DNA of 64,000 bases from Malus domestica (Eukaryota > Streptophyta > Magnoliopsida > Rosales > Rosaceae): the NCBI RefSeq assembly GCF_042453785.1, contig NC_091676.1, forward strand, positions 2,301,501 to 2,365,500. Reading direction: 5' to 3'. A program made the position numbers and the translations under genes. The notes under the pieces are model-generated. The model was not told the origin of the DNA, did not search any database, and saw only the letters and a program-made list of their open reading frames with translations. This document shows, piece by piece, positions 6,688-60,449 of this stretch (positions within the stretch are counted from its first letter, which is position 1; the number at the start of each line of letters is the position of its first letter).

Positions 6688-6738
6688 ACATGCCCCGACC
6701 CTGATATTCCCTGAATACCAGGGTCGGGGCGTGTCATA
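6688..6738. repeat. 51-bp palindromic LTR remnant
   Basis: An almost perfect palindrome: TGACATGCCCCGACCC at the left, GGGTCGGGGCGTGTCA at the right. It holds both LTR termini of the outer fossil with almost nothing between, beside the primer-binding site on the minus strand. Confidence 0.65.
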
Positions 6739-6762
6739 TTATGAATTACACTGTAAAGATCA

Positions 6763-6905
6763 TCTCTGCAAAAAAGAAATTAAAACTAAGGCTGTTTAGT
6801 AGCAAATACATAGCCAGTTCTTAATGCTTTTACTAATACCGTTCATTTGTTTTTAACAGTTTGATGACTAAACGACCTTAGTTTTAATTGATTTTTTTGC
6901 AGAGG
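6763..6905. mobile_element. Short hairpin MITE (about 143 bp)
   Basis: CTCTGCAAAAAAGAAATTAA at the left edge pairs with the complement of the right edge (about 43 bp of imperfect terminal inverted repeat), with a short unpaired middle. No clear target duplication was found. It lies about 310 bp beyond the stop of the minus-strand host gene. Confidence 0.6.
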
Positions 6906-8960
6906 TGTTAATAGGGTGATTTATAATATGAATTGTTCTAATTATAAATACGATGTTCTATAACTTGACCACAAACAAATTTGAGAAATTTTGAGTAAGA
7001 GTTCTTATTCATCTTTAAGTAGCCAAATATTGTTCATTAAAAAATTGAGTACAAATATTAAACTCAATCAGCATTCCGACCACACAAATGGAAGCATACT
7101 TTTTACAGCCTTTAGTCACCTCAGTGTTTTCAACTCTACAACAAATAGGAGGCAGAATGGTAATCCTCTTATACTTGCATATCAACTATCAAGAAACAAA
7201 AATGGTACTCTAATTTAAACTATCTTCCACTCGGACTCAGAAAATTCGTAATCCTGTGAATTAGATTTCTCAATGACTGCGGTGGTTGTGAAATTTTTTC
7301 TTTCTGTTGATCAAATCCTGCATCAAGATTCCCAGACGGATCTGCCGGCTGCTTATGGTGTTGCATATTCAATAATCTTATTTTCGAAGCAAACGCTTCA
7401 TTTTTTTCTGAGAACCAAAAGAAGAAAGAAATCAAATCATATCAGTTGCGCAAATGTGAGTAGAGAGCTTGAGTTCAAATTCTTATGATGTATTATCACT
7501 TCCGAGATTTATCAAGTTCCATCAAAGGGTTTATGTACCTTGTAAGACCCGCATTTTGCCTCTTCACAAGAAATGGATTGAATTCTGGTACCATCCACTT
7601 TAATGCAACTTTCGTCAAGCTTTATGTTCAATGATTGCGTAGTCTGTAAACCTGACTTAGCAATGTCATTATCCCACGCTTCTGAAATGGAGCCATGAGA
7701 TCTTTATGAAGGAATAGTTGAAAACATATACTTCCTTAATACTACTGCTAAAACATAATTTGATGTAATCAAAGAAACTGCCGATATGCATCAAAAGTCT
7801 GTAGGCCCTCTATTAAAGGGCAAGATAATGATATGCACGCATGCAAAAACCGGAAAACATTTAGACAATAGTATAACATGTTAGAACGTAAGGCAACAGA
7901 ATTGCAACATAGGAAAGAAGATCGATGAAATGATAAATTACCACTTTCTGGAAAAGGCATGGTAGATTGATCCTCAAAACTATTGCACACTGGCAAAGGC
8001 ACGGCAGACTTTAATTCATCAAAACTATTGTGCAGTTCAATACCATTGGGAGGAGAAACTGTCGCATCCGTGGTCAAGCAGGCTGCACCATTGTCCGAGG
8101 CAACACAAAAATTAGTAGAAAAGAACGCATAAATGAAGAAACATACAAATATTGGGAATCTAGACGTGGCTAGACTTACAATTTGATATTGAAAGGGCAT
8201 CAGCAGGACAAGATCTAATAATCGCAGGGTTTCTCTTACATGGTTCTACCAAGTTAACAAAATCGTAAAATTGTATGTCATCTGAAATATTAGAAGACAT
8301 GTCAGTGTGGTTACTACTTCTGTAATCTGTTTCCATAAGAGAATTGCACCCTCCTACATCATCCAAGGCTGGGACTAACATATTGTCTCCACCATCCAAT
8401 TCAATTTCTTGACTTGCATGATAAATTCCATCGAGCTGAAATTTATTCACCTTGATATCATTAGTTTCTTCCAATGATAACCACACGATATGGTCTTAAC
8501 AAATTCCACAGAACCTAAGTGGACTCTGCCATTTGATGACCTTTTATCGCGGTTTTCGTAAGTAGCGTTTTGTACAAGAGATGAGTCAGAAGCTGCCCCT
8601 TCCTCTATATCCACTGAAGATTGAGAGAGTGCATCTCCTACAGGTTCTGACGAGGAGAGAAGGTTTTCAACAGTCTCACAAAATGTCTCCAACTGGCTTA
8701 TAGCAGGTTCAATTACTTCCTGCAAAACAAAGGAATTTTCCATAAAATTAAGTCAAGCAACCGTGAGAGTGGAGCTGATATAGCTGAGCTTGAAAATAAC
8801 ATGTCCACATTGACTTAACAATTCGGAAAATGTAGATGTTAACAGAAACTTGTGGCGTAAGGCAAAACAAGAACTAGATGATTGTACATAACAAGAAACA
8901 ATACCTGCTGCATTATTTCCTCCACCTCCCGGCACATATCTTCGAACTTCAGGTATATGT

Positions 8961-16647: not shown

Positions 16648-17780
16648 GGTGCATACAATTCCCTGAATGTTCCAGGAACCCCGTTTCATGGTGCGATGAA
16701 AGCAGCAGATGCTATGAGAGAGGAGGTCTTGCTGTTGATCAAGGACAAGAAAGCAGCTGTGTACAGTAGTACTAGTGAGATCAAAATAAATGAAATCATG
16801 TTTCGCTGTTTAATCCCGATCCCCGTGGCCAGTTCATGCCGGAAAATGAAGATGCTGACAGAGTTATGGGTTTGATGGTGGCTGGATTTCACTCACATTC
16901 CATGGTGAGGCTTAAGGTTCGATTTTAGTTAAAGACGAATTTGAATCACATTATTGTTAATTTATTATGACACTTAGCTTACTCATCCACCCCATTAGTG
17001 TAGAAATATCATTTTTTAAAAGAAAAACCAAAAACACATGCCATTTTTCAATTAGGTCAAATTAGAGAGTGAGTACATAGAATACTCACTAGTGAGTTTC
17101 TAAGTATTATCTATACACAACATTAATAGATTTTAAAAAACAAACACGTTAATTAGTAATTCAATTATCTACAACCACATTATTTGGGTCACAAAACTTG
17201 GTTTAAATATTGATCTAGCTAACATTACCCTTTAGATTGAAATTAGGCTAATGCGTGACTTGGTATTTGACTTAAAAATTGAATACCGAACATAAATAAA
17301 TAATAAAAAATTTATTTTTATCTTATTGGGTTCGATTTTTGAACTACTAAAACAGATCCTAAACCAATAGTTTTCCGTTCGGTGTCTAAAGCACCCTAAA
17401 AAAATAAATTCTTTCTTTTTCTAGCACTCCATGTGGCCGAGTTCAAATTTAATGTATTCATTTTGTATACGGTGTCTCTGTAGTCTCTATTACTAATTGA
17501 TACGTGTTAATAAATTTAATCATTTCTTAATTTTGTTGTCATAAACTTAACACGTGTCAATCAATGATAGAGTCACAAAGAGGCCATACACAAAATAGGT
17601 GCATCCCATTCGGTAGATGTCCTCGAATTTGTCCTGGAATAAAATAGGCTACACTTCCAACTTCTCTATTTCCTTTATCACGTCGTGATAAGGTACAAAC
17701 AGCAAGTGTTAAATTGCCGTTAGTCTGAATCCGGTACCAGCGGGCGATCACATTCCCCTTCATCCTTATATGTGAAGGCA
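16648..17780 (+). pseudogene. CYP716-type cytochrome P450 pseudogene (plus copy)
   Basis: Two decayed P450 pieces in order on the plus strand. At 16648-16905 a middle exon reads NVPGTPFHGAMKAADAMRE and, after frame changes, FNPDPRGQFMPENE and GLMVAGFHSHSM (I-helix side). At about 17605-17780 a C-terminal exon keeps the heme-binding signature FGRCPRICPG (F-x-x-G-x-R-x-C-x-G) and ends PVPAGDHIPLHPYM before a stop. The N-terminal exon and the ExxR exon are missing or unrecognisable, and the frames are interrupted, so this is a relic. The wording of the motifs matches the CYP716 family of triterpene oxidases (beta-amyrin 28-oxidase type); subfamily not determined. It is closely related to the minus copy at 22508-26732. 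Confidence 0.75.
16906..17600 (+). other. AT-rich interval between P450 relic exons
   Basis: Presumably the old intron plus later insertions. It holds no open frame. The repeated phrase around 17500-17560 (CACGTGT with inverted partners) may be a decayed MITE. Confidence 0.4.
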
Positions 17781-18030: not shown

Positions 18031-18239
18031 GGAAAGAGATCCTCTTCGGATCTCTTCCTCCAAAGCCCACGGATCAAGTGATCCGGGACCTTGAAATTTG
18101 ATCCAACGACTAAAAATTATTATAACTTTTAAAAGTTTTTACTAATCTCTCTATTTTTAGCCGTTGGATCAAATTTCAAAGGTTTGGATCACTTGATCTG
18201 TGGGCTTTGGAGGAAGAGATCCGGAGAGGATCTCTTTTC
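18031..18239. mobile_element. Mutator-type MITE with 9-bp target duplication
   Basis: 209-bp element with terminal inverted repeats of about 95 bp (GGAAAGAGATCCTCTTCGG... against its complement at the right end). It is flanked by GACCAAATG at 18022-18030 and 18240-18248, a perfect 9-bp duplication typical of Mutator-like elements. It has no coding capacity. The whole element would fold as a hairpin. Confidence 0.9.
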
Positions 18240-19083: not shown

Positions 19084-19676
19084 TGTTAGAGTAAATGTAG
19101 AATTATGGAGAATAATCCGAATAATGACTTTGAGGTACGACTTGAATCATTTCCTTAAAGTGTTATTTGCCCCCACTCGAATGAGTTTGCTAAAGGGTTC
19201 TTGGCAAATCACTTCCAGGATACAACAAAGTATGGAATATTCGATTAGCAAAACCGAATTGTATTCCCTTAGAAATAACTAGAAAGAAATTGTATGAATG
19301 TGATGAAGAGAGTAGAGAGAAATGAATGTAGAAATAAATCTCTGAATTGTGTATGAAACATTATGCCACAATAGGTATTTATAGGCATTATGGCACCCAT
19401 TCATCGAGTCCTTTCATTTTAATTGAAGATATACAACTCTTCTTAAAAGTGTTGATCTAAAAGACATGTCCTCTATTTAGAATTTTCAGAAAATAAATAT
19501 TTACTAATTATATCTTTTAATTTTACTCATACAATTTGAGTAAGCATCATATCTTTTAACTAAAAGTTGTAACCATTCAACTAATTACATTCTGCGTACT
19601 GCAGCACCCTTACATTTGCTGCGCACTGCAACATCCTTTCATAATACACACGCGCTGCACAATGCAGCACCAAGTC

Positions 19677-19733
<57 letters not shown>

Positions 19734-22366
19734 AAATATAATATAATATATATCATAATAATTTATATATTTATAATTGAAATCTCTAGCAATCCTTCCC
19801 AATTTCAATAATATGATAAATAATATAATAACATTTCTCTCTTTATAATTAATCACAAGCATACCGATATAATCATGCATACAATAAAGGTGTCTTTCGA
19901 ATTAAACCTTTAATTAGTGTAAGTAATTCAAAGTTATAACGAATGCGATGGTGACCTAAGTTTAAACCACCTATTCTTATGTTAAAACCGGAATCACTAC
20001 ACACATGATTATGTCTTATTTCCTTAAAGAAATTTCTGAACTAATTAAGCACTATTATGGCCTTGTGCTTCATCCTGGTTTCATAAACATTTACAAGAGA
20101 AAACCCAACTCTTGGTAGAAGCGGCACCACTTCTTATGTTCATATAGGTGAGGTTCCTTCCCATGTCCCTGCTACTATAGACATAACTACAAATAACCTC
20201 ATTAAGAGATAAAACTCATCCTCCTAAACGTAGCAGTCTTGCACTGATCATCCTGGAATGAGCTATATAATAATTTTCAGTGCTTTCACAACCACTTAAC
20301 AATAACTTGTTATTACCCATTAAACTTTTAAACTAGTGATGTTCTAGACAAAGTCGGGTTACCATTATTGGTGGCTAATTTTCAGTAAAGGGTTTTAGCC
20401 CCATTCCACTAGATGTACTAACTACCAAAGCTCTTGAAAGTGCTTTTGTTAACGGATCCGCCAAGTTATTACTTGATTTAACATAAACAATATTAATAAC
20501 TCCATCAGTTATTAATTGCTTGACATATTCATGTCTCAAGCTAATATGTCTAGATTTTCCATTGTATACCTTATTGTATGCTCTAGACAAAGTAGCCTCA
20601 CTATCACAGTATAAAGAAATGGATGGCATTGGTTGTGGCCACAACTCTATTTCCAATAACAAATTTCTAATTCATTCCGCTTCTTTACCTGCTGCTGCTA
20701 ATGCTATAAATTTAGATTCCATAGTTGAATGTGCTATACATGTTTGCTTCTTCGAAGCCCAAGAAATTGCTCCTCCGGCAATTGTAAAAATCCACCATAT
20801 TTGCGCTATTGGTCTTATTGGCATATTCCTCACTTGTTTTTCTGTGTCTACAATCACGAATGTAATGGCCTTTCTTTCCACAATGGTAGCATACACCATT
20901 TGCATTCTTTTGATTGTTGTTGGAATTGGTCTTCTTAAACTTCCCTTTGTCAATTTTGACTTTGAAGTTCTTTTTATATTTGTTTCCTTCGATAATATGA
21001 ACTTTAGAGAAATTTTGATTTGCAAAATTCTTATCACGATTTCGAGTTTCCTCTTCAATTTGAATATCCTTTTGCAAATTCTCCAAACTAATATCTTCCA
21101 CCATGTGTAAAAGTTTCTTTCTATAGTTATTCCATGTTTGGGGTAATTTTGCCATAATAGCCCCAACTATCATAGGATCCGGAATAACTATTTTAAGGTC
21201 ATGAAGCTTTGAGACCAAGACCAATAATTCATGAACTTGGTCTAGGATGGGTTTGTTATCAAACATAGTGAATTCATAATATTTGAACATTAAAAATTTA
21301 TCGGTACCTCTTTTTTCCGTTGTGTACTTGTGTTCAAGTGCTTCCCAAATTTCCTTTGGAGATTGTATGTGTGCATACAGGTCATATAAACGATCAGATA
21401 ATGTGCCCATGATGTGTCCTCGACATACCAGTTCATCTTCTTCACGCTTCTTTCAATCGGCAACTATATTGTCCGAGTCTTTGTCACTTGGTTCACAAAT
21501 AGGCTCCAATTTCGGGTGCAACACATATATGACATTTAGAACAGTAAGCATGAAACGCATCTTGTCCTTCCATCGGGTGAAATTTGATCCATCAAATTTG
21601 TCTAACTTGTAGACATCTTGATTGATAATCTTCAAAGCCATGTTATCAGATTTATTATCCATGATGAAAATAACACTTTAAGATTGTTAGAGTAAATGTA
21701 GAATTATGGAGAATAATCCGAATAATGACTTTGAGGTACGACTTGAATCGTTTCCTTAAAGTGTTATTTGCCCCCACTCGAATGAGTTTGCTAAAGGGTT
21801 CTTGGCAAATCACTTCCAGGATACAACAAAGTATGGAATATTCGATTAGCAAAACCGAATTGTATTCCCTTAGAAATAACTAGAAAGAAATTGTATGAAT
21901 GTGATGAAGAGAGTAGAGAGAAATGAATGTAGAAATAAATCTCTGAATTGTGTATGAAACATTATGCCACAATAGGTATTTATAGGCATTATGGCACCCA
22001 TTCATCGAGTCCTTTCATTTTAATTGAAGATATACAACTCTTCTTAAAAGTGTTGATCTAAAAGGCATGTCCTCTATTTAGAATTTTCAGAAAATAAATA
22101 TTTACTAATTATATATTTTAATTTTACTCATACAATTTGAGTAAGCATCATATCTTTTAACTAAAAGTTGTAACCATTCAACTAATTACATTCTGCGTAC
22201 TGCAGCACCCTTACATTTGCTGCGCACTGCAACATCCTTTCATAATACACACACGCTGCACAATGCAGCACCAAGTCATTATATATATATATATATGTAT
22301 GTATGTATAAATATAATATAATATATATCATAATAATTTATATATTTATAATTGAAATCTCTAACA
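19084..22366 (-). mobile_element. Short non-autonomous Copia LTR retrotransposon
   Basis: LTRs at 19084-19791 (708 bp) and 21685-22366 (682 bp), both beginning TGTTAGAG, flanked by TAATC (19079-19083 and 22367-22371). The length difference comes mainly from a (TA)n tract. It reads on the minus strand: gag begins near 21662 and carries a CCHC knuckle (CYHCGKKGHYIRDC) near 20860, followed almost at once by a C-terminal RNase H remnant (about 20760-20375). Protease, integrase and reverse transcriptase are absent, so it could move only with help from a related element. It is broken, with a small number of interruptions besides the large loss. The LTRs differ at about five or six sites, so it is young. 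Confidence 0.92.
19677..19732. repeat. (TA)n microsatellite in LTR
   Basis: About 22 TA units followed by TATG repeats. The partner LTR has a much shorter run near 22279-22308. Confidence 0.9.
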
Positions 22367-23133
22367 TAATCCGCATACAAATGACAGGTTCCACTTCTGT
22401 TAGAAAGTGTGTTGAGTAGTGCGTTAATTTTCTCTGTCCAAATAGGTATACTGTTGGAGCAAATATGGTTGGATACGAATGTGAATGCCTTCTTCTGGAA
22501 CTGGATTCATACTAGTTCCCACTTGTATTTTGTGACAAAGTGATGGAGGGAACACAAAAGTTGGAGTCTAGCATATTCTTTTCCCGGACAAATTCGAGGA
22601 CCGCTGCCAAATGGGATGTTAGAGTAAGCCGGAGGAGTTTTTCCGTTCTCAAACCTAGTCGGATCAAACTCTTCCGGATCAGGAAAGTATTCGGGGATTT
22701 TGTTCGTGCTGCTTGCCGACCAATACACCTAATAACTTTAACCTTATCAATTAAGAAACACAAACTAATAAATTAAACAACTGGACTGTAATTATATAAT
22801 TAACCTGATTAAGTACTATATTAATTACCTTCCACCCTTTTGGAATCGTTTAACCTTCATAGGTGAAGTCAGTTGTAACCTCCTCCCTAAATGTTCATTG
22901 GAGAGGTGGTACCAGCCTCATAAGTTCAAGTGCCACACCCCATGAATATTTCATCTTCTGTTTGTCTTCCCAGTTCAGTGCCTCGCCCGATTTTTTTGAG
23001 CTTGCGATCTCCAATTGTCCTATAACAACAAAATAAAAATTTCATCATGTAAATATATACCAATTTCCAATTTAAAGAAGATCTCTATCAATTTTAATTA
23101 AGGGATGGTTTAGTTGTTGTCCCTAGTCTTTAA

Positions 23134-24413
23134 GGGTGTGTTTGTTTGACCTCATTAAATGGGATTGGACTGGACTGGATTACTTCCTAGTGTAGTCCCA
23201 TGTTTGGTCCGTGCTGGGACTAAGTTAAATGAGATTAAAGGGGATTCGCGTGGACTATCGGCCTCGCTAGAAGTTCTTGGCGAGACCCTCCCCCAACCAT
23301 GGGACTCGCTAAGACCTTCTTTGCTTTGCTCTTTCCGCTTGGCGCTTGGTCCCTTCCGCTTCGCCCCTCCCATCTACTTCTTCTTCCCTACTCTTATCTA
23401 CTTTTTCCCCACAGCTTGCATACAGACAAAGAGAGAGAAAGAGAAGAAGGAGAAGAAGAAGAGCCGCATAAAGAGGGCAAAGGGGAAAAGGTTTTGTTAT
23501 GGGCTACTGGGTGAGAAGAAGATGGAGGTCTGATTCTCCAATTTTCCTGTTTTTTATTTTATTTATGGGATTAATATGTTTGGATTCTGAGAAATCGTTC
23601 AACCCTTGTCGCTAAGGTTCTAATCCTCTGTTTGTTTACACCCATTTGAAATTGCAGAATCTAGGGCAAGCAAGGACAGCGGTCATCAATGGATCTAAAG
23701 TCGAACTGGGTGACCTCGAAGATAACTTCATGGGTATGTTTAATTTTTGTTTTGGTGAAATGGGTATGTTTTGAATAGTTGTTTTCATGTTTGATTACTG
23801 TTTTTTCAGTGTTTTATGCATTTTGGTTGTCAGATTTTTGGTAGTTGATGAATCCAATGTTGGGAAATCGAAAGTGAACTGTGTTCGCCAAATTCTCCAA
23901 GAATTGCTTAAATTTAGCTTTGTATCTCGATTTTTCGATTGTGTTCTACCACAAAGATTGTCAATTTTGTGTGTAATTTTTTGTCTGTTTTGTCTGTAAT
24001 TTTAGTTTTCTTGAGTCAGTAGTGGCTAAGTGGTACGAGCGGGTGGTAGGTGATTAGCGCCGTTGAAATTGTTTATGTACTTTGCAATGGCATTAGTCTG
24101 GTGTACTGAGCTGCAAATTTTGATTAGAAATGTAGTATGAAAGACAGAATTGTGTGTATCAGCATGCTCGTCTATTTCCTATCAAGTGTTCTTCCTAATG
24201 TTATTACTTTGTGAAATGATCAAATGAGGATTACTTCTTAGTCTGAGCAAACACCAAATTGGTGAACAGTACTGTTTTCATTATCCTGCTTCTTAGTCCG
24301 ACATTGCACCAAACGCTTCACTAAGCTAGTCCAGCTTAGTCTAGTCTAAGCCAGTCCAGCTTAGTCCCTATAGCTAATCCAGTCCAAGACAGTCCGGTGC
24401 AACAAACGCACCC
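23134..24413. mobile_element. PIF/Harbinger-like element with gene-like interior
   Basis: 1280 bp flanked by TAA (23131-23133 and 24414-24416). Terminal inverted repeats pair GGGTGTGTTTGTT with the complement of AACAAACGCACCC. A 3-bp TWA duplication with G-rich termini fits PIF/Harbinger. The interior has no transposase but looks gene-like: a CT/GA-rich leader (23380-23530), then an intron-like gap ending in TTGCAG and an exon-like frame near 23659-23732 (AVINGSKVELGDLED), followed by a GT. It may have captured part of a host gene. It lies in the intron between exons 2 and 3 of the P450 relic. Confidence 0.7.
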
Positions 24414-24424
24414 TAATTGTTATA

Positions 24425-25735
24425 AACTCAAACCTTATGCATTTTAGGTTTTAGATTGAAGTCCCTCTCCACATAAATAGCATAATAATAAAAGAGATGT
24501 AATAATATCAATAAAGACTCAAACTGTTATTATACTTTCATTTACACCACCAATTTAATTATTGAAATTTGCTTATGAGTTTCATTTTCAACAACAACAA
24601 AAATTGCTTATGGGTGCATTCTAGATTTATTTTATTTTATTTTATAATATGAGTACATTTATATAATAAAATTTGGGTACATTTTACATATAAAAAATTG
24701 GTACATTTATATAAAAATGTATATACATTTCACATACAAATTGTCACATCCCGGCCCGGGCTCCACCACATTCCGGGCTCAACTCCCCCGTAGCACGATA
24801 TTGTCCGCTTTGGGCCTCGACCATGCCCTCACGGTTTTATTTCTGGGAACTCACACGAGCAGAATTTTCCAGTGGGTCACCTATCATGGGATTGCTCTCG
24901 CGCGAACTCGCTTAACTTCGGAGTTCCAATGGAACCCGAAGCCAGTGAGCTTCTAAAAGGCCTCGTGCTAGGTAGAGATGAGAATATACATATAAAGCTT
25001 ACATTATCCACTCTCTTAAGCGATGTGGGATGTTACACAAACAATTGGTACATTTTATACAAAAAAAGAGAGGTTGTTTTTATATAAATTAAATGGGTAC
25101 ATTTTATATAAAAAAACAAGAGGTATATTTTATATATAAAAAAACAATGGGTACATTTTAGATTAAAAAAAAATAGATTGTGCATTAAAAAATGGGTACA
25201 TTTTACATAAAAGGAATGGTACTTACAAAACAAAAAAAAAATTGGTACATTTTGCATGTAACAAAGTGGTACATTTTTAAATAAAAATGGATACGTTAAA
25301 AATAAATTATGGGTACAAATAAAAGGTTAAAATAAAAGGTTAAAAAATTATGAGTACAAATAAAAGTTTAAAAATATGGGCACAAAAAGAAATTATTAAA
25401 TGGGTACAAATTAAAACTGAAAAGAAAATTGGTACAATTTAAAAAAGGGGTTGCAAATTAAAAATGGGTACAAACTAGAAATAGAAATATATGATACAAA
25501 GTTTAGCCATAACTATAAATATACCAAATGTAACATTTCTAACACTAAATGAATATATTCAGAAATACAATTGAATTGAAAAGAAAACAAAATTTAATTA
25601 TCTTGACATGTAAATATTTTATTATTGAAATAATTAATGACCTTATTAAAACGTAAGGACCTTGATTAAAAATTAAAAATGAATAAGGCCTTAATCAATG
25701 AAGTCGAAAAAATAAGGATGAGAACCTAATTTCTT
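24425..25735 (-). repeat. AT-rich GTACCC-motif interspersed repeat (copy 2)
   Basis: Dozens of GGGTACATTTTA-like motifs. The right edge (25620-25735) is the complement of the left edge of the copy at 2540-3325, including the GATTAAGGCCTTATT phrase. It was later split by the Cassandra-type LTR at 24742-25037. No coding content. Confidence 0.6.
24742..25037 (-). mobile_element. Cassandra-type solo LTR carrying a 5S rRNA-like segment
   Basis: 296 bp that on the minus strand begins TGTAACATCCCACATCG and ends GGGATGTGACA, flanked by CAAAT/CAAAC (a 5-bp duplication with one difference). Inside, on the minus strand near 24960-24850, is a block matching 5S rRNA: AACTCCGAAGTTAAGCG, then a GCGAGAGCAAT stretch, then GGTGACCCACTGG, then CTCGTGTGAGTTCCC. 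Cassandra TRIM elements are known for LTRs built on a 5S rRNA gene with its Pol III promoter. Only one LTR is present, so the rest was probably lost by LTR-LTR recombination. It is not a working 5S gene: it diverges over much of its length and lacks the normal 5S array context. Confidence 0.82.
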
Positions 25736-26049
25736 CTTTAATTAATTACCTGTACAGACTTTGTCACATATTTCATTCAGGCCTTTATGCGAGAGATACT
25801 TGACGAGCAAACTTGTAGCCATTGAAGGTGAGTGAAATCCACCCGCCATCAAACCCGTTACTTTATCAGCAACTTCATTCTCCGGCATGAACCTTCCAGT
25901 CGGGTCCGGGTTAAATAGTATGAAAGACAAGGTGTCGTGCATTTGGACTCCTCTGGAAGCAGCCGCTTTCTTCTCCTTAATCAACAACAAAACCTCCTTC
26001 CTCATTGCGTTCGCCGCCTCCAGCATCTATCTTCTAAAAAAAAAAAGAG

Positions 26050-26375
26050 TTATATATGAACACAATGGAGGCTCTCTTCCTTTCTCTACAACATACAGTC
26101 CCATGTTATTATTATTACTCAATGCTCTTGCTCTCATCATTTATGCATTCAAGTTTAAACCTTCCAAAACTAAACCTCCACCGGGTAGTTTAGGATGGCC
26201 GATTATAAGCGAAACAACCGCCTTCATGAATGAGATGCAACAAACGTTTGTGGGAGAAAAAATGAAAAAACACTCCACAAAGCTCTTCAAAACCAGCATA
26301 TTCTGCGAGCGGATGGTTGTTTTATGCGGCACTGCCGGTCACAAGTTCATTGCCACCAACGAGGAAAAGCTTTTA
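26050..26375 (+). pseudogene. Inverted duplicate of CYP716 exon 1 (hairpin left arm)
   Basis: Plus-strand copy of the P450 N-terminal exon: the membrane anchor, the PPPGSLGWPII hinge, NEMQQTFVGEKMKKHS and ERMVVLCGTAGHKF, ending EEKLL. It is the mirror image of 26400-26729 on the minus strand, with about 20 differences over some 326 bp (roughly 94% identity) and a 24-base spacer at 26376-26399. The anchor region has a 4-base indel relative to its partner, so the frame at the extreme 5-prime end differs. There is no downstream exon on this strand, so it cannot make a P450. A transcript across the pair would form a long hairpin. Confidence 0.85.
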
Positions 26376-26732
26376 GGTAGGAAGAGCGGCACTTCCACAT
26401 AAAAGCTTTTCCTGGTTGGTGGCATTGAACTTGTGACCGGCAGTGCCGCATAAAACAACCATCCGCTCGCCGAATATGCTGGTTTTGAAGAGCTTTGTGG
26501 AGTGTTTTTTCATTCTTTCTCCCACAAACGTTTGTTGCATCTCATTCATGAAGGCGATTGTTTCGCCTATAATCGACCACCCTAAACTACCCTGTGGAAG
26601 TTTAGTTTTGGAAGATATAAACTTGAATGCATAAACAATGAGAGCAAGCGCATTGAGTAATAATAATAACATAGGAATGTATGTTGTAGAGAAAGGAACG
26701 AAGAGAACCTCCATTGCGTTCATATATATCTC

Positions 26733-28032
26733 TTTTTTTATAGAAGATTGATGCTTTTATGGTATGGAGGCTGCCAAGCTTCCCTTTAGGCGTTGTATAT
26801 TTTACTTCGCGTCCACACTTGGGCGAACCTTAACCAACCATTAATTTTGGGATTTAATTACCAATGATGCTATTCTTACCCAGTGTTCAAAATATTCACA
26901 AAATTGACGATGTTTCGGTAGAAATATCTGAAAAAAATTAAGGATCAATATAAGAAAGGGGATTAATGCAAACTTCACTCTTTATAGGCGAGATATAAGA
27001 AAATCAATGAATCTTTATAAATTTACCGATTCACTAAAGAAAATTTGCCGAAACGCATGGTATCCATTTTTTCATTTACGAATTTCAATCTAGAACCTCT
27101 CACTTACAAGCGAAAGATAAATATTATTAGAACGTAGTACTAAATGACCTTACACTGACTTAAAATAATTTGTTAAGACTAGCTTTTAATAGAATTTTAT
27201 TTTATAATGAAGAGGTAATTTTCCAATCATGTAAGTGTGACCCACTAGTTGCTCCCTTATTTCTCTCATTTTCCATTTAGTGCTTGTCCTTTAATCGTAT
27301 GAAAAACTAAAGTAGTATTGCACCTGGTGAAGGGAGCTTGCCCATTGTCATCAGTTTCTCCAGAGAAAAACCTGATGAGAAGATTCCTGTCGGCAATGGA
27401 GAGAGGACAAGTGCGTTGATATCACCGGAGCGTTTGTGTCAAAATATGACATGTATAAAATAAACTTTAAGATGTTGATATATTATTAACACAAGACGCT
27501 ACAATAACAATGTACGTATTCGTGCTAAGTGATTCTTCCCCTCTCCTTGTACTCGTCTTACTTAGCATCTGATAAACTTTATAGGTATGGTCTATCACTA
27601 ATATTATCGATATTGTCCTAACTTAACCACCTATTCCTAGGTGTTGAATTTTATCACAAAAAGCATCGATGATATTAAAAGTAAAAAGTCTCGTATATTA
27701 ATTGTATAATATGCTACACGTCTCACGTACAATTTCGCATGCCGGGCAGCCAACAAGAAGCAATCAGACACTTCACTCCATAAAAATTGTGTATTACAAG
27801 ATAACTTTGACAAATTCTGGTCCATAAATACTTCAAATACATGAATTCATTATTTTCTACACGTCTACATATATCAAAATATGCTCAGGCTATACACTGA
27901 AAAATAAAATGTCTGAACGAGAAGTGCACTTCACACGAAGGAATCAAGTAAAACCCCCAGTCACCTCGAAATATTCCGACGACTACATCTTCATTCTACC
28001 GGGAATTCATTAAAATGACAAAATTCACAACA
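26733..28032. other. Intergenic between P450 relics and ALIX, no gene seen
   Basis: AT-rich. Short open frames only. The far end (27840-28032) is probably the 3-prime UTR of the minus-strand ALIX gene. Confidence 0.45.
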
Positions 28033-48092: not shown

Positions 48093-50568
48093 CTATGTTG
48101 CCTTGTCGATGGCTAAGACAGTACTTTGGACACTATTCGCAGCTTTCGTTGCCTGAAACGGCAAAATGAAAAGACCTATAAGAACTTGTATTAAACATAG
48201 ACAAAATGCTTTAGCAATGTGAAATGAATGACTTACCTCTTCATGCCAATCAGTGCACAAATTTACTGCAACAAGTGCTGTGACTTGAACAAGAAGCCCA
48301 CAAATGATCCCCATCCAAAGCCCCTATTCATACAAATTTAAACGTCAATGGCGCGCACACGTACACACACATACATGTATGTATGTATATATATAGAGAG
48401 GGAGAGAGAGACTCACCATGCCTCCAATATGGAGGAAGAAAGCAAAAAGCACAGCAGTAGGAATTCCGACAACATAGTAAGCACCAAGGTTTATGACTAC
48501 ACAAAGATTTTGCCATCCACACCCTCTGGCAGCCCCTAGATAGCCAATTATATTTCTTTTTAGCAGCGAAATCAGAATTTAGACAAGAAAAACATGTTAA
48601 TTTAAAAGTTTCATCAAGCAGTTCGATGCAGTAATATACAGAGATTGATTAGGACCTGAAAGCACACATTGGAATCCATCCAAGAAGTCGGAAAGTGCAA
48701 GCAGTGGCATCATTCTAGCAACATATACAATCACTTCATTCTCATTGCTGTAGAGCTTTCCCCAAACAAAGCGTACCAAAACCGTTGCTGTTGCGATTCC
48801 AGCACCCTCTAACAAAGCCATTGCAGTCATGACTCGTAGAGCTAATTGCGCGCCTTGCGGCCGTCCTGCTCCCAATTCATTCGACACTCTGGTGCTGTTA
48901 TGATAACAGGGAAATATTATTCTCAATTTCTTAGAATAAAACATGTATACAAGTACAATATTTGACGTTCATATGCTATAGAAAATTACATGGATCACTG
49001 ACCTTATAGCACTGCCGAGACCAACTGAGATCATATAAACCATCCAACATGTGTTAAGGCTGCATTAATGATAAAAATTCAGAAGCTATTCCAAATTTAT
49101 TTAACGATGAGAAACTGTAATTTCTACTTTGTGTTTCCTGTTTCTGTTTTTATCTGTTACATATGATAACATTACCTTATCGATAATACGGATGTTTCCA
49201 GTTTTGGGTTCGGGAGAAGACCAGACAAGAGAACAACCATTTCGAAAGACCAATATTCGAAGCTGCAACGCGAAAGAGTATAGTTGGTTAGTGATTCAGA
49301 TGGAATAAAAAGGGTTTTTCACATATATGTGTCATTGATGAGAAACTTACCATATCATTATAGCTGATGAAATCGCAAGTTTGACAAAACTGACAATATC
49401 ATTCAAGGCTTCTTCTGAAAATCCAGTCCAAGTGTTCTTGCAGGCGGACGAGAACTGCACGTAACATGCCAGTAACACCACATTAACCCAATTCGAAATG
49501 CAAATTGCCAATGCTGCGCCTTTGTTTCCCAGTCCGAATTTAAAACAAAGTGCCCAACAGACCACAATGTGAAGAAGAGCTGTGACTCCAGAGCTGATCA
49601 TCATTGGAAACACATTGTTTTGTGTCTGTAAAAATCTGTTGAGGCATTGGAGGAGACTATAGGCAAACAGGCTCGGAATCATCCAGCGGTTAAAGGTTCC
49701 TGCCTCCGCAGATATCTCATGGTCTTGGCCAAGAGCCATGAGAATGGTGCTTGTGTAGAACCAGATGACTGCTAAGGGGATGCTTACTGCTAATAGTGTA
49801 AGCATTGCTCTTTGCATGTGGACTCCAAGCATGTGGTACTGTTTGGCTCCGTAGGCTTGTCCACATAGGGTTTCTAATGCACTTCCCATTCCCAGCTGTG
49901 AGACATATTTCATGTTTTTGAGAGAAAATTAGAGGAAAATCACTTAGGGCTTACAGATAATTTAAAGTGCAATGTTCTATAAAAAAAAAGTTGAAAGTGC
50001 TCTTATGTTGTGAAAGCACCATAAAGAACCTTAATTTTAATAAAATTTTTGGTAGGCCTCAAAATTAAAGTGCTTTTAGCAAAAACGCTAACGGACCATA
50101 AAGAATCACAGTAATGAAGGAAGTCCATGTTACTCAACTGATTAACGACTTACATGAAATGGGAATAAAAGGTCGTTGTGTAGCAAATCAATCATATTGG
50201 CAATACAAAAAAGTTAAAAAATGCGCGACAAAGATGAAAAATTGCCACCTTAGCATCTTCGTTTCATGTGAAGAGAAGCAACTTACCAGTACACTGAAAC
50301 CAGTGACAGAAGCAAATGAAGAGGCCATGGAAGCACTGGAGAGTGCCAACTCTCCAAGATGGCCAACGAACATGACAGATGTGACTTGTAAGCTGTACTG
50401 CAACAAGCTCACTGCAATCAGAGGCCCTGCCAGCCATAGCTGCAATTTTGCTTCTTCAATAACATCCCCACCTCTCCAAATTCCTCTTTGAGATGGTATT
50501 GTTTCACCATCAAATTCTCGATGATCTGGAATTAGAGGAGTCTTAACACTCGAGCTCACTTCTGCCAT
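48093..50568 (-). CDS. MATE efflux transporter (MATE-1, DTX10-14 type)
   Basis: Eight exons: 50568-50287, 49895-49351, 49262-49176, 49059-49003, 48894-48656, 48535-48417, 48323-48237 and 48152-48093. Borders are GT-AG; 1476 bp, 491 aa plus stop. After a soluble start ([20 protein letters not shown]) come about 12 membrane segments. Family marks are [38 protein letters not shown] (the CGQAYGA box) and [16 protein letters not shown] at the start of the second half. MATE proteins export organic cations, flavonoids, alkaloids or hormones in exchange for protons or sodium at plasma or vacuolar membrane; substrate here is unknown. An intron (48416-48324) divides what is one exon in MATE-2 and MATE-3. 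It is divergent from MATE-2 with 1.29 kb between start codons. Confidence 0.96.
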
Positions 50569-50630
50569 TTTTCACCAAATTAGCATCTTTTGCCACATGA
50601 ATTTGATTGTTTTTGTTTATTGCTGCTAAC

Positions 50631-50636
<6 letters not shown>

Positions 50637-50681
<45 letters not shown>
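50637..50681. repeat. (GA)n microsatellite upstream of MATE-1
   Basis: About 22 GA units some 70 bp before the MATE-1 start, so it is in or near the 5-prime UTR (a CT run on the sense strand). The duplicated region near 59115-59125 has only a short GAGAGAG. Confidence 0.95.
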
Positions 50682-50684
<3 letters not shown>

Positions 50685-51857
50685 CCATACAAAACAACAA
50701 AACACCTAAAAATTTGAGGGTTGGCTAATATGATGGAGAAGAACTTCCAAAACTCTCATCGTCTGTCACGAGTCAAATATTTTTTTAAGCATTTTTTGTA
50801 AGACTTTCAGCTCATTCCTAACCACAATCAAACGAGACACGTCTTTTTAAAGTTTTCAATCAGAAATCATCTTGTCGGGGGATTGGTCCAAATATTTATT
50901 GACAAAGGGATCAATTAATCTTACAAAATAGTTGCAGGTTGAGTCTACCAGCATCGACCATTCCATCCCCCAACTGTCTCGTAAAATTTATCATGCAATA
51001 CAAAAAAGTGCTTGAAAAGACGGGGGGAGGACGGACGTTTTCCTTTTGCCCCGAGGGCGCCCGGCGGGGAGGGGGCGGAGGACAGTCATGATTGAAAGTG
51101 GGGGGGGGGGGGGGGGCGGTCGTGATTTTAGGGGGAGCAGGACGGGCGTGATTTGGGGTTGGGGTACGACGGTAGGTAAGTGTTTTTGTGACATGACGAA
51201 GACGATAAAAAGTCTTTTTTTTTCACGTATGGTTTGTTAAATGAATTTTAAAAAGTTATTGCACTTGATTCTGCGTTAGTTGTTCCGTTATTAATGTATT
51301 TTCTTAAAAAAAAATTTCAAGTTTCTAAATTATCATTCTCTTTTTATTCTGAGCTTGTCTCGTGTTTTTTTTTTTTTATGAAAATTTTAACGAAAAGTTT
51401 TCAGTGCGGTTCATTTTAACGAAAATGTACATTTTTACACTAAAAAATCAATCCTGATACTATTCACTTTATCATTTATTTTGTCCTTATCATTAAAACT
51501 CAAAGTTTTCAAACCATTTTCATTAGTTTTTTTTATTTTTTTATTTGGTAATGTTAGAGAGATTAAATTTAGAGACAGAATTTGTAAACTAAATAATATG
51601 TCACTAATAAAAATAAGTATAATTATCAACATTTAATAATAAATCAATTATCAGCTATACTCTAGTTTCTAAAATTTTGTGTTATATATTTGTCTATTAA
51701 AACTTTACTTTTGGCCTCGGTCCTTGAAAAGGTAAAACTTTCCCCTCCACTCCCTCCGCAATCCGCACATATTACGTAAAATTCCAAATCCAAACCTCCA
51801 AAGTCATTAGGCGACGAGTCACTGATTGAGCTCCAGGATTCCACAGCAGACGCCGCC
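50682..51857. other. Shared upstream region of divergent MATE-1 and MATE-2
   Basis: A G-rich low-complexity stretch (51020-51180, including a run of about 16 G) and a MITE (51370-51535). The proximal 150 bp before MATE-2 match those before MATE-3. No open frame is of interest. Confidence 0.5.
51370..51535 (+). mobile_element. MITE, copy B (pairs with 37583-37750)
   Basis: TTTTAACGAAAAGTTTTCAG, TTTTACACTAAAAAATCAAT and ATTAAAACTCAAAGTTTTC are the complement of the copy at 37583-37750. Likely a Rosaceae-abundant MITE family (from memory). It is within the MATE-1/MATE-2 shared upstream region and I did not find it in the matching region before MATE-3. Confidence 0.6.
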
Positions 51858-54800
51858 ATGGAAGAGAGCTTGCTGTTACCAAAACGCCGAGAAGAAGAGC
51901 AGCAACAGAGAAGATATGGTACTACAAGTATTCTAACATGGACTTCTTTCTTCGAAGAAGTGAAGAGGTTGGGATGCATAGCGGGACCCATGGTTGCCGT
52001 GATTCTATCTCAGAACTTGTTGCAGTTCATATCGATGATGATGGTCGGCCACCTGGGCGAGCTCGCTCTCTCCAGCACCGCCATCGCCATCTCCCTCTCC
52101 AACGTCACCGGCTTGAGTGTTTTCGTAAGCGCCCTCTCTTCCTTCATATCTTTTGGAATTATATATGCTTTTAATTTCCAACTGTTTTCGTTTGCTACGT
52201 GTTTGAAGAAATGCCAATAAAACATCGTATCTTTTTTCTTTTATGAATAAGATTACATTGTTTTTCAAAATGTGAGATTCTAAACTACTATAATTTGTTG
52301 GGGGAGAAACTCAAATTCGGGTGCAAAAGACCTTAATCAACTGGTATAACACACGTCTGCAAAACTAAATAACTTAAACACGAACCAAATCAGGATTTCC
52401 AGATTATATATACTTCTTGTATGATTGTACTTGAATATTTGCTCTAATCTATACCAGTTGCATTGCATCTGGGCAGTTTTTATTAGAACTAGCTGGTAGC
52501 CAAGAATTCAGAACAAGCTAGGTATGTGCGGATTTGCTAGGGTTGATGCAGCAAAGGATCGGACCGAGAAGCTTGATTCCTCTGATATTCTCTAATGAAT
52601 ACGAATACTACACCAAAGTCTTTTAGATTTTATAGGAAGCGAGTCGCGTTATCCACACACCTCTTTTTACTTTTCACATACATCTTCTTAATTTTTTTGT
52701 TTGGTCCTCTTCAGTTCATTTGATCCAACAACTAAAAATTGAAATGAACGTTTGGAAAGTAAAATTAGGTATGTAGACAGCATCCCGATGCATGTATGAC
52801 TCAATTCCACTGCACCTGGTATCAATCTATGACAAGAATGTCGAGACGCAGCACAAAAAAATTGACTTTGTTAGCGTCTAGGTCACTGCTTTATGTCGTT
52901 TTTGGTTGTATTTTATTTGGATTTTTCTTTTGTTTTGGCCAAAAGGTTTCAGGTTTTATTTGATTAAATATAAGAGGTTAGACTTTGCCATCAATCATGG
53001 GGCCAGCTAATCATGGATTATATTTAGTATGAGAGTTTAATTTGTCTACTCAAACTATTGTGTCCACTAAAAATGTTTCCCGTAGAAACGTTGTCCACAA
53101 ACCATGAAGATTAAATCTGTGTAGCTTTTGCAAAAAGACTACAGATGTGAGGATGCTATGACGTATATCATGAAACTACTTAATGATAATCTTATAAGCA
53201 ACAAATTGAAGATAATTAAGTACAAATTTCGGCGTAGATGCAGTGTTAATATCGAAATAATGACGAGTTTCAGTGTAACAATGCTAAAGGGTAGATCATG
53301 TACTAGTTTTTGTATAAATCTCTCTCTTATAACTAAGTGGATTTTGTAACTTGCTGTTTGAACAGTTGGGAATGGCTAGTGCATTGGAAACTCTGTGTGG
53401 TCAAGCATATGGAGCAGAACAATATCAGAAACTTGGACTTCAAACTTACACTGCTATATTTTCTCTCAACTTAGTCTGCCTTCCATTATCTTTGATATGG
53501 ATTTATATGGAGAAATTACTGATTTTCATGGGTCAAGACCCTGTAATTTCTCGTGAAGCCGGCAAGTTCACAATCTGGCTTATTCCCGCGCTATTCGCTT
53601 ATGCCACTCTTCAGCCGTTCATTAGATACTTTCAGACACAAAGTTTAATAATTCCTATGCTCATAAGCTCGTGTTCGACGCTTCTGTTCCATATTCCTCT
53701 GTGTTGGCTTCTAGTATTCAAGTCTGGACTCAACAACCTTGGAGGAGCATTAGCAATCAGTATTTCATATTGGGTGAATGTGATTCTACTTGCATTATAC
53801 ATGAAGTTTTCTGCTGCCTGTTCCAAAACCCGAGCTCCAATTTCTGTGGAGATCTTCCATGGAATCGGAGAGTTCTTTCGCTTTGCCATCCCTTCTGCAA
53901 TAATGATATGGTAGTCAGTTTATTTTTTGCATGCTAGTCTCAAGAAGACGTTTCGCTATGCTGGATTCTTACAATATTTTATTTTAAACGTCATTTCTTT
54001 ATTTGATTGATTTTTATTGATGGTTGTAGCCTTGAGTGGTGGTCATTTGAGCTGCTTATCTTGCTGTCTGGACTTTTACCAAATCCGGCTCTTGAAACTT
54101 CAGTTCTGTCTGTATGGTATATATTCTGTATAATAAAATAAATTTGCCAGTTTGATCACCATGTAGGAAAAAGTGCGTATTCTAACTGATTGTTGTTGAC
54201 AGTCTGCAGACGATTTCGACGCTCTATGGAATACCTTATGGGTTTGGTGCCGCAGCAAGGTATGCTCAAGCACATTATACCATCAGATTACATATTTATA
54301 GGAAAAAAAATCAGTTTCTTTTTCTTTCTTTGCTTATTGTGCAGTACTAGAGTTTCAAATGAACTAGGAGCTGGTAACCCACAAGGTGCTCGAATTGCTA
54401 CTTTTGCTGCGATGTTTCTTGCAGTCACAGAGGCAAGTATAATAACCACGACCCTCTTTGCCTGCCGGAATGTATTTGGTTACACTTTTAGCAATGAGAA
54501 AGAAGTCATCGACTATGTCACAACCATGGCTCCTCTAGTTTGCCTGTCTGTTACCCTAGACAGTTTGCAAGGGGTCCTTTCAGGTTTGTTTCTTTGTCTT
54601 CTCCTATTAGCAATAAACGATTGAGTTCTTTCATGTTTCAGTCTAGTGTTATGTGTTTTGTGAATGGTTAAACCAGGTATTGCTAGAGGAACTGGGTGGC
54701 AGCATATAGGGGCTTACATAAACCTCGGAGCGTTTTATCTTTGTGGGATTCCAGTTGCAGCCACATTGGCTTTCTGGGTACAGCTGAGAGGAAGGGGCCT

Positions 54801-55260
54801 TTGGATTGGAATACAAGTTGGTGCTTTTGTGCAAACCATGATGCTCTCCTTAGTAACAAGTTGTACAAATTGGGAAAAGCAGGTATATAACTCAACCCTA
54901 ACTTCTTGACAATGCTGATCTTCTCCAATTGCTTCAACGATTCCGCTATTTTCTGTTTGGTTGGCAAGAATTTGGGAGGGAAGATGAAGAACATTTCTTA
55001 TCTTATGACTACCATTCTAATCCATTTGCTTAAACTGTCCCAAGATGTTTTATTTTTCGTCAAACTCCCCACAGCTTTGGTTTATCCTTGGTTTTTCTTA
55101 GCACTTAAACAGAACACCTATCCAAAACTAATGTTTCTGAGAGGATTTTGATGTTGGTCTTTTGATGTTTCAGGCAAGTATGGCAAGGGAGAGGATATTT
55201 GAGGGAAGCCCCCCACAAGTTAATGGCTTGTGTGACAAGGCAGAGAGTAACGAGTTTTGA
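51858..55260 (+). CDS. MATE efflux transporter (MATE-2)
   Basis: Seven exons: 51858-52124, 53366-53910, 54030-54116, 54203-54259, 54345-54583, 54677-54882 and 55174-55260. Borders are GT-AG; 1488 bp, 495 aa plus stop. It starts [19 protein letters not shown], soluble and charged, then about 12 membrane segments. Key motifs are [40 protein letters not shown], and [16 protein letters not shown]. The C-terminus is short and charged ([17 protein letters not shown]). Role as for the family: proton- or sodium-coupled export; substrate unknown. Intron 1 is 1.24 kb. Exon lengths are identical, one by one, to MATE-3, and the protein is nearly the same, so the two are a recent tandem pair. The donor after exon 2 is GTAGTC, weaker than the GTACCC of MATE-3 but still GT. 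Confidence 0.96.
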
Positions 55261-55870
55261 TTAGCACAATTCCCTTTATCGCGGGAATAAGGAGAAAGTA
55301 TTAGGTTTATCCGTACTTTTGGCACCCAAAAAAATTGTATTAACACATTCGATTCGAATATGATTCATGCATATAAACTTGTGGCATTCGGTCTTGACTA
55401 CAATCAAGTGAGATAGACGTTCTCGAATGCAATATGGTGTCCTGAATCTCCTAATAGCTTGCCTCCCAGTTGCTGCACAAAATTTTATTTTTAAAAAGCC
55501 CGAATCCAAAACGACGTCATTTTGGACAATTTTTTTCATAAAATTCATGGCTTTATGATGTGAATAGAGAAATAATAATAACAGTCAAATATTTGATTCC
55601 TTGGCTTGCTTGCTTGATTGTTAAAAAAACGTTCGTGTAGGAGAATTCAGTTAGAATTCTATTGGGCTCGATCTTGTAAATTCCTGTGGGTTTTGAATTA
55701 CTTGTACTCTTTAAGTGATAGACTAGTAAATAAAATATTGTACCTTGTGTTATCAATATAATTCACTTAATTATTATAATTCTACATGGCATCAATCATT
55801 TAGGTTTCTTTTTTTTTTCCTGGTTTCAACCCTAGCCCTGGCCGTTCCCACACAAACACAAAACTATATA
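55261..55870 (+). other. 3-prime flank of MATE-2
   Basis: The first 230 bp match the 3-prime flank of MATE-3 (ATCGCGGGAATAAGGAGAAA and AATCTCCTAATAGCTTG), so the duplicated block reaches at least to about 55490. The rest up to the Helitron is AT-rich with no gene. Confidence 0.6.
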
Positions 55871-56387
55871 TCTTTATATACTAAAACCCAATCAGGTGGT
55901 ACTGTGGATGACCAGTGGGCGGACTGTTTTGCCCCTCCGTTTTATATCGATTTCCCTTGCTGCTCCCCGCGTCCTCATCGTGCAACTTTTCGTTGGATTT
56001 TCTTCCTCCTATAGTGTTGTACACGTGTTGCTCATAGTGGAAGGGAAGAAACATGGAAAAGCGGGCTCTTCCATTTGCTTCCACAGATTTCTCGAGCTCT
56101 CTCTCAAGCTCCGAATCGCTGGCCTCTGCAAGAAGGTATTTGTCTCTCACTTTTTTTTTTTCAATTCGAATTTTGTTTGAATGAATGTTGGATCTGTTGC
56201 CTTCGGGAAGAAATTTTAACCTAGAAAAGCTTGATTTTCAGGAAATCGCCAATTCGAAAGCTTGGGTTTCCTGGTGAGTTCTACGACATATTTGTTGAAA
56301 TTTTTGTGATTTTAATTTTAAAAATCTGGGTTTTTTTGTTCAATGGTTTGCTCCATCTTATTAGCTTTCTCGCTAGAGATCTCTGCC

Positions 56388-56428
56388 ATGGCTGCTCCAC
56401 CAAACTGGCGTCCGCTCTTTCGAACCAG
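56388..56428 (+). other. Exon-like piece inside the Helitron
   Basis: MAAPPNWRPLFRT followed directly by a GT donor (CCAG|GTACGA). It may be the first coding exon of a captured gene, but it is too short to identify. Confidence 0.3.
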
Positions 56429-57469
56429 GTACGACTTCTTTCGTTTTCTTTTGTTTCCGGGAAAATTTAGGGCTCGAAAATGTGTAGAATTGTAGAAGTT
56501 AAAGCCTGTCTCAATCTCTATGTTGGTCTATACACAATGAAATTGAATTTTGTGTTTCAGCATACCCTTACTGGAATTTTATGATTTGGGATAGTGGCGA
56601 TTTGAAACCGTTAACTGGGATGAGAATTAGAGTGATTTGAAAACGAAGAGCAAGGAATTGCAGGTGGGTAGTGATAAATGATAATGGTGGGGATACTATG
56701 ATGATAACACAAATTCACTATTTTGCAGAGTTTTGAAAGTTGATTTCTTTTCTTTTTTCATTTTGATTTTTGATTTTTGTATTTTTGAACAGGTGGTGTT
56801 CTGGTTTTTCATTCCTTCTCATCACTTCTACAAGAAGTTAGTTTTCTTTTCTGCATTTAAAGAGTGTCTAAAGAAAAATTGTATGTGATGATTTTCTGCT
56901 ATAATGTTTTGAAATTCCTTATTTTACTTGAATGTATTAGTGCTTGCTTTTGCTTTCACCCAGGTATCAAATTCGGTTTTGTTTGTATGGTAACATGGAT
57001 TGCTCAGGTTACGTAGGAGAGGATGGAGGTGAGAAATACAATTGGGAAAGATATGCTGAGAGGTTTACAAAACACCTTTGAAGCTGTCGGTGAGGATTCT
57101 TCTGTTTAAAAGTAGGAATTTTTTAATTTTTTGTGGAATCGATGTTTTGTTTTTTACTGAGTTTATAAAGGATTGCTTGGACAAGTACAGGGTGTTTGGG
57201 ATTGAAAGGTTGGGAAAGGCCACATATGGGTTCAGAGAGAATATGTTTTTTTTTAATCTCTATACATGTAATTCCCTCTACATTAGAGGATATTTTCATA
57301 TTATTTTGCACATAATTTTATTGAAGGGTTTGTGTATAAAGGTTTCATTAATGGGGATTTCTATGCAATGACTGCTTGGGATTGAAAGGTTGTTCCAGCG
57401 TTTATTTTAAACTTACTGCAATGACTGTTTGCAAATTTACAAAATTTGTGTTAAATTTCAGTAGCTTGA

Positions 57470-57621
57470 ATGGAAGACGCAATTCCAACACCTATCAATC
57501 AGGTACAACCGTATAAAAAGGCAACAAAGATTAAAGTCCACGTGTGTAGAATGTGGAGACCGAGAATTTCAGGAACGACTGATAAAATTACAAGTCTGCA
57601 CTGTATACTGGTTGACAAAAG
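57470..57621 (+). pseudogene. RPA1-like (OB-fold) exon carried by the Helitron
   Basis: An open stretch of about 51 codons begins MEDAIPTPINQVQPYKKATK and continues VHVCRMWRPRI, then SLHCILVDKR, ending at a GT donor (AAAAG|GTGAGC). This wording matches the first OB fold of plant replication protein A 70-kDa subunit-like proteins, which many plant Helitrons carry. Only this exon was recognised, so it does not encode a whole RPA. A later exon may follow near 58260-58340. Confidence 0.6.
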
Positions 57622-58533
57622 GTGAGCAATCATTATGTAATGATTTTAATTAATAAACCATTAGTTTTGCCCATTGAAAATTGTCGGAATAAGTTAAAGG
57701 TAAGGGTCACCAAATCATACTATTTTCGTTGCTATTTATTTCCTTGCTGAACATGATGAAGTGAATCTCTTCATTTGCATTCTTGCATTTAAATTTGCAT
57801 GTCAATTTATGGTAAATAATATTCAATTTTCATTGTCTTAGATTCTACTGAGTTGCAGTTTTATCATCTATTTATAAAACCCATTTAGACTCACAATTTT
57901 TTTGTATGGTAAAACATAAATTGAAACATTATGTATATCCAAGATTGAAGAAGAAATTTAAGTTAAATTAGATGGACATCCAATACTAGGGGTGATGTTG
58001 TCAGGGTTGTAACCATATCAGTAGTTGATTTTATAAATAAAGTGAAATACAAGACTAACCCAACATGTATCATAAAATAATGTAGAACTACTTTTTTCTC
58101 TCTCTCGGTACTCAACATATCATTCCTCACTTGGCCAAAAATGATAGATTATCCCTCATGATGTGCTTTCCATGTTTGAATATTTTGTTCATTCAGTGTC
58201 AAGTGTTTTCTTTTTGTGTATAAGAATATCTCAGGTACTCGTTGTTTTTTCTTTCCTGTAGGTGGTACAATAGTTCTATCCGATGATGGTTGCTATTTTT
58301 CAAAGGATGCTGTGGAATTTCAAGATTGAAAACCGCTGGCTTTCAATCTTTTAAAACAAATTACCTTTGTAAGGTATCAAAACTGTAATTTTTCTATAGC
58401 AAATAATATTTTTTCCTTCACTATGGTAATTTTGTTTAGATTAATTAATGTTACGCTGATACTAACTCAAATTTATACACTGCTATAAGATCAATTTGTA
58501 ATCCCGCAGCAACGCGCGGGCATTACTAGCTAG

Positions 58534-58787
58534 TATTAACTATTATAATAATTTTGGGTACTCTAGCCTCACACCTCAAGCTTATCGCCTAAACGAGATT
58601 ATTCATAAAACGCCGTGATTTCACTTTTGCCTTTTAAAACATTGAACTTATCCACAATAAATGATGAAAATTCATGCATCCAATACAACGATTACTTCTT
58701 TCCTCTATACAGAAAATTAACGTGTACAACATGATTTTTTTTTTTTGTTCATATGGGTGTTGAATAGAAGCGCAACTTACCAATAGA
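58534..58787. other. Spacer between Helitron and duplicated MATE block
   Basis: AT-rich. The duplication breakpoint lies in here, near 58760, because exon and adjoining intron similarity to MATE-1 starts there. Confidence 0.45.
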
Positions 58788-60115: not shown

Positions 60116-60449
60116 TTTTTTTTTTACCAACTCAACCAACCTTTGTTAGCCCTAATAAATTTTTAGTTTCTTATGTTCTTTCCTTTCTTTAAGGTTGACA
60201 AGTAAAGATTGTTCATATTGATCTTTTTCCTTGCTGTCATATTAGTCGTATACTGCCATTCTACTCGGAGTCAAGAGAAAAATGAAAACTTTTGACCTCT
60301 GTTCTTGAAAAAGGTATAAAATTTCTCCTCCTCTCCCTCCGCAATCCGCATGCACACACACACACACATATATATTCCAAATCCAAACCTCCAACGTATT
60401 AGGCGACTACTCATTGATTGAGCTCAACGCTTCCACAGCAGACGTCGCC

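Follow-up and report, generated by a model that had tools for sequence, protein, structure and literature searches.

The locus raises two connected questions, namely how a nearly perfect inverted duplication came to lie in a P450 gene of apple (Malus domestica), and whether it serves as a hairpin source of siRNAs today. It is found in what we call the window, the whole stretch of 64,000 nucleotides that was analysed (C16:2301501-2365500 in a 651-Mb assembly of 19 contigs). From comparison with a second copy of the gene we consider it probable that the palindrome sits in a decayed minus-strand P450 gene with a homoeolog on contig C13, that it arose by a fold-back template switch, and that it is now probably a relic.

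The best local alignment sets the plus strand of the left arm against the minus strand of the right arm over the extents given in Table 1, with 341 of 366 positions identical (93.2%), 25 mismatches and 7 gap columns, and a repeat search returned the same palindrome as a 302-nt pair (94%) and a 46-nt pair (89%). Folded as RNA, the minus strand of positions 26000-26780 has an energy of -618.5 kcal/mol, whereas 20 shuffled sequences averaged -199 (sd 7) and none of them folded as well. Because the fold lies far below all 20 shuffles and blastn of arm against arm gives E = 6e-148, a chance origin of the pairing is excluded. The predicted structure is a near-continuous stem with a nearly closed but loosely paired centre, which bears out the hairpin-forming capacity proposed in the sequence-only reading; if transcribed, the minus strand would give a self-complementary hairpin of the kind that is diced by DCL enzymes. 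In their length, near-perfect identity and close spacing, the arms have the form that characterizes plant inverted-repeat siRNA loci. The facing arms of that earlier reading were recovered by both alignment and blastn, but their extent (26050-26729, with arms of 326-330 bp) had been drawn too narrowly, as the homology continues for about 28 bases further to the left and 26 to the right. The centre, read there as a 24-base spacer, pairs loosely, and positions 26369-26389 are an antisense piece of exon 1. A 4-nt deletion close to the start of the left arm shifts its frame. The differences between the arms were not significantly clustered (16 fell in the 5' half and 7 in the other, P = 0.09), and the longest identical runs between them were not unusual (P = 0.39).

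A genome search with the arms as query, in which very common words were skipped, found three places, namely the two arms themselves and C13:1990674-1990936 (88%), and a looser search added a single 21-nt piece from the same C13 locus (C13:1990617-1990637). The P450 gene at this locus (L003) has exons 1, 2 and 3 without stops, splice sites that appear plausible by eye, and no duplication of the start of exon 1. Its joined product matches PF00067 (E 5e-47), with taxadiene 5-alpha hydroxylase as the nearest solved relative. Exon 1 is one open frame of 352 codons from stop to stop, of which the arms cover about the 5' third. The view that the arms represent the whole exon was rejected, C13 exon 1 being longer. 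The piece of exon that matches the palindrome centre lies in C13 about 50 nt past the arm end. A neighbouring gene at 32.4-33.1 kb of the window, which we take to be BRO1/ALIX-like, also has a copy on C13 (98% amino acid identity, dS 0.22, dN 0.008), which keeps the same strand and lies about 22 kb away from the P450 there. Since both the P450 and this adjoining gene are duplicated on C13, we regard the two regions as homoeologous blocks. In the I-helix region, where P450 proteins usually carry an acid-alcohol pair, the end of exon 1 reads AAFHSPS in L003 and AGGFHSPS in the window (25751-26023), and relatives on C5 and C10 read TAGYSTV. Elsewhere in the window, positions 48600-63700 were seen by eye to hold a cluster of genes on both strands, presumably MATE-transporter-like.

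As judged from its reading frame, the P450 in the window is a pseudogene, because exon 2 carries stops, the left arm is frameshifted, and dN is about equal to dS between the arms (0.058 and 0.055 over 90 codons, with 12 nonsynonymous and 3 synonymous changes). Against C13 the arms give dS 0.31-0.39 and dN about 0.08, and the later piece of exon 1, which joins the left arm in mid-exon, shows dS 0.14 and dN 0.18; constraint and rates differ between adjoining pieces, so that any dates are rough. The order of events is reasonably clear, the two arms resembling one another more closely than they resemble C13. Pfam scans of three short pieces of the window and a PDB search with the later exon 1 piece gave no match, and no terminal inverted repeat was seen in the insertion in intron 1. 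Just past exon 3 lies a copia-like LTR element (19084-22372), whose LTRs have 681 identical, 5 mismatched and 28 gap positions. A second P450 pseudogene of the same family, more decayed, is present on the opposite strand (16663-16907 and 17603-17714, plus strand).

Table 1 Coordinates of the palindrome and of the P450 pseudogene that contains it (positions in the window).
Feature	Position	Strand	Description
Right arm	26386..26755	-	5' UTR and first third of P450 pseudogene exon 1; aligned to the left arm and to C13 L003 1501-1763 (87-88%)
Left arm	26022..26390	+	Copy of the right arm in reverse orientation; carries a 4-nt frameshift deletion; mid-exon opposite-strand sequence outside
Palindrome centre	26369..26389	-	Exon 1 remnant with microhomology AAAAGC; 21/21 bases to C13:1990617-1990637
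Later exon 1, up to intron 1	25751..26023	-	86% DNA identity to L003 841-1120; tblastn 68% over 91 aa
Intron 1 insertion	23102..25736	.	2.6 kb, with the 9-bp direct repeat TTTAATTAA at both ends; absent from C13
Exons 2 and 3	22451..23017	-	tblastn with the C13 exons; two in-frame stops in exon 2
Possible native promoter remains	26756..26860	-	By-eye comparison; weak

When read along the minus strand, the window contains the 5' UTR and the first third of exon 1, after which come a short exon remnant ending CCTAAAAGC, the inverted copy leading back into the 5' UTR, the rest of exon 1, the intron with its insertion, and exons 2 and 3. Near the fold, exon 1 is followed until AGGAAAAGCTTTT; after a short altered stretch comes CCGCTCTTCCTACCTAAAAGC, which is found further downstream in the C13 exon, and then a stretch starting with TTTTCC that is the reverse complement of the foregoing exon and 5' UTR. 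In C13 exon 1, AAAAGC and GCTTTT are located 51 nt apart on the same strand, with GCTTTT upstream. We propose that a minus-strand end in AAAAGC annealed to this upstream GCTTTT by the 6-nt microhomology. Extension from the annealed end would run backwards for about 350 nt and produce the inverted copy, and it predicts TTTTCC as the first bases after the turn, as observed. A second switch would then have returned synthesis into exon 1 at a place similar to the 5' flank of the right arm. At the return point, exon 1 agrees with 12 of the 15 bases of this flank (26764-26778), and among 916 positions in exon 1 it is the sole one where this 15-mer matches at 12 or more. Because the return switch skips ahead, about 322 nt of exon would be lost, and 322 nt of C13 between AAAAGC and the return point are missing from the window. 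We treat the right arm as the original, since its order and orientation agree with those of the later exons; the left arm is reversed and joined in mid-exon. A copy adjoining its source, microhomology and loss of the skipped sequence are the marks of a fold-back template switch, and all are present here; one fold-back synthesis and a second switch would account for the reversed copy as well as for the missing sequence and the two junctions. The comparison is with one outgroup sequence, by which the order of the small junction changes is not fixed (near the centre a few bases stand in place of about 36 nt of C13, and near the return point 10 nt differ), and a two-step history of a duplication followed by a deletion may also have given this arrangement.

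Palindromes are a known artefact in some libraries, and it could be argued that this one was assembled from a chimeric fold-back read. Such a read would give near-identical arms, whereas the arms here show 25 mismatches as well as indels, and both the centre and the outer junction are explicable only against C13. The artefact was rejected on the arm divergence and is in our opinion extremely improbable. We give no more credit to a MITE or another mobile fold-back element that captured a piece of gene: inverted repeats are common (25 were listed in the 179,689 bases used as controls below), but apart from the palindrome itself the arms match only C13 in the genome search, very common words being skipped, and the palindrome sits in its own gene, in order. 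Capture was rejected on the genome search.

We return to the decayed gene with its fold-back switch, and ask what siRNAs from it would find. Of the 339 21-mers in the right arm, 73 are identical in the left arm, and 53 of 339 from the right arm and 46 of 337 from the left arm are exact at C13, where the longest exact run is 61 nt. The arms were further compared with 24 P450 loci (L009-L032, about 3.2 kb each), a comparison of scored candidates and not a genome-wide search of 21-mers. Perfect or near-perfect 21-mers were found in one of them, the C13 homoeolog, and in 0 of the other 23, where no exact match to the arms is longer than 16 nt and each 21-mer has 3 or more mismatches. In amino acids, the family of L003 reaches 47-50% identity with five loci from C5 and C10, and 34-38% with L015-L017 and L019, which by their motifs we take to be CYP716A. 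The arm family does not show the clear closeness to CYP716A genes that membership would imply, and from these comparisons we would call L003 CYP716-like, not CYP716A. The sequence-only reading had suggested that siRNAs from the arms tune the CYP716A triterpene C-28 oxidases in trans, in favour of which one can cite membership in the same broad P450 group and the production of triterpene acids by CYP716A175 of apple, a gene reported to map to linkage group 13 (PMC5089662) and which may be L016 at C13:42.4 Mb. However, none of L015-L017 and L019 shares more than 14 nt with the arms, their best 21-mers still have 3 or more mismatches, and their protein identity is the low one given above. The link to triterpene acids is not borne out among the loci compared; such targeting was rejected, and the tuning is highly unlikely. 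If siRNAs are made, the C13 homoeolog is by these matches a likelier target than the triterpene oxidases. A plant MIRNA gene would show a match to a known family or a single precise 21-nt duplex. A known RNA family was rejected as an explanation, since an Rfam gathering scan of the window gave 0 matches, though a new family would escape such a scan.

Among the 25 differences between the arms, 12 are transitions. In the RNA of the minus strand all 12 become G.U pairs, and in that of the plus strand none does. This asymmetry was noticed post hoc, after folding, and its nominal binomial P of 0.0005 becomes about 0.004 with a beta-binomial fitted to 23 overdispersed control inverted repeats. The controls came from 30 sequences (179,689 bases; L001-L003 and L007-L009 were omitted as copies of the studied loci), in which 25 inverted repeats were listed, minus the focal one and an overlapping one at L006 5940-6327; palindromic self-hits were halved, and a filter had already removed repeats rich in two dinucleotides. 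None of the 15 controls with at least 10 transitions was as one-sided, the nearest being 9:1, with the reservation that the controls are less alike (67-87%) than the focal arms and may include transcribed as well as silent repeats. By the blastn alignment the focal asymmetry is 13:0, and by the pairwise alignment 12:0. Other palindromes, probably MITEs, in the window (6734-6931, 18033-18237 and 61085-61436) and at several loci, are overdispersed in the strand of G.U, with for example 9:1 at 6734 and 3:14 at L005 6002-7414. Nine transitions could be polarised by C13, namely A>G (2) and C>T (2) in the right arm and G>A (2) and T>C (3) in the left arm, which on the minus strand all read as A>G or C>T. 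The bias has the same sign as transcription-associated mutation of the non-template strand, as described for vertebrates (PMC2927911), and selection for pairing would give this sign too. The asymmetry hints at transcription of the minus strand or at a constraint on pairing, and in so far it speaks slightly against a simple relic. The pattern hardly resembles the outcome of strict selection for pairing, because 13 mispairing transversions persist and the ratio of transitions to transversions is 12:13, compared with 32:34 in the flank.

Upstream of the gene, comparison by eye sets CCTATATATATAAAGGG in C13 against CCTAAAGGG in the window, and the TATA-like run of C13 was not seen in 26756..26860. 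The flank outside the right arm aligned with the C13 upstream region no better than 68 of 500 shuffles, and for the left flank 82 of 500 shuffles scored equally well; because the similarity of the right flank is not significant by shuffles, the argument for a native promoter was downgraded, and the comparison speaks clearly neither for one nor against it. A scan for bacterial-type promoters found nothing, the bacterial model being uninformative for a plant. A working silencing role, judged from sequence, is possible: a diced minus-strand transcript would yield siRNAs that silence the C13 homoeolog, in the way GmIRCHS acts on soybean chalcone synthase genes. The near-continuous predicted stem, the 21-mers shared between the arms and with C13, and the consistently G.U-forming transitions speak for it, while the weak promoter homology without the TATA-like run, the mispairing transversions that were kept, transitions that are not depleted relative to the flank, and the overdispersion of the G.U controls speak against it. 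On balance we find it unlikely, and most likely the locus today is a relic with few or no siRNAs. Less likely still is the fuller scenario, in which after the whole-genome duplication a single fold-back switch made the gene self-complementary under its own promoter, and the gene, with pairing kept mainly through G.U wobbles, silences its C13 sister.

The soybean I locus GmIRCHS, as described in the cited text, is likewise a tail-to-tail inverted repeat with closely spaced arms, built from part of a metabolic pseudogene and expected to give double-stranded RNA, but it has 1,087-bp arms, a 78-bp gap, the promoter of a DnaJ gene and known silencing of CHS (PMC13051633), whereas the apple palindrome has arms of about 370 bp with practically no spacer, and its promoter and siRNAs are hypothetical. 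Antirrhinum SULF and Mimulus YUP are presented as taxon-specific small-RNA loci that arose when protein genes were duplicated in part or in inverted form (a P450 homologue in the case of YUP), and their small RNAs have proven targets; for the apple palindrome the homoeolog is a target matched by sequence (PMC12371187). Rice inverted pseudogene pairs were defined by a stem above 100 bp and a loop below 2 kb, dimensions that the apple palindrome shares, and by small-RNA density (PMC2708354). Short-homology priming, reverse copying and return to the strand are shared with the fold-back inverted duplications and template-switch hairpins outlined in several reports (PMC3907307, PMC7467729, PMC11724301, PMC8794818); the yeast inverted insertions reported there are mostly about 5-34 bp, compared with about 350 nt copied in this plant gene. 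Among the papers listed on CYP716, apple or Malus hairpins and inverted repeats, none was about this locus by title and the start of its abstract.

The palindrome is real, and its origin is well explained by comparison with C13. It raises the question whether siRNAs come from such a hairpin, for which the homoeolog is the one good target found here. Many plant miRNA genes stemming from pseudogenes or transposable elements are thought, according to one account (PMC3237417), to have been born as inverted duplications. The birth events of such duplications are seldom readable, and in apple the non-duplicated homoeolog in the same genome allows the event to be read base by base, including the microhomology at the fold-back point.
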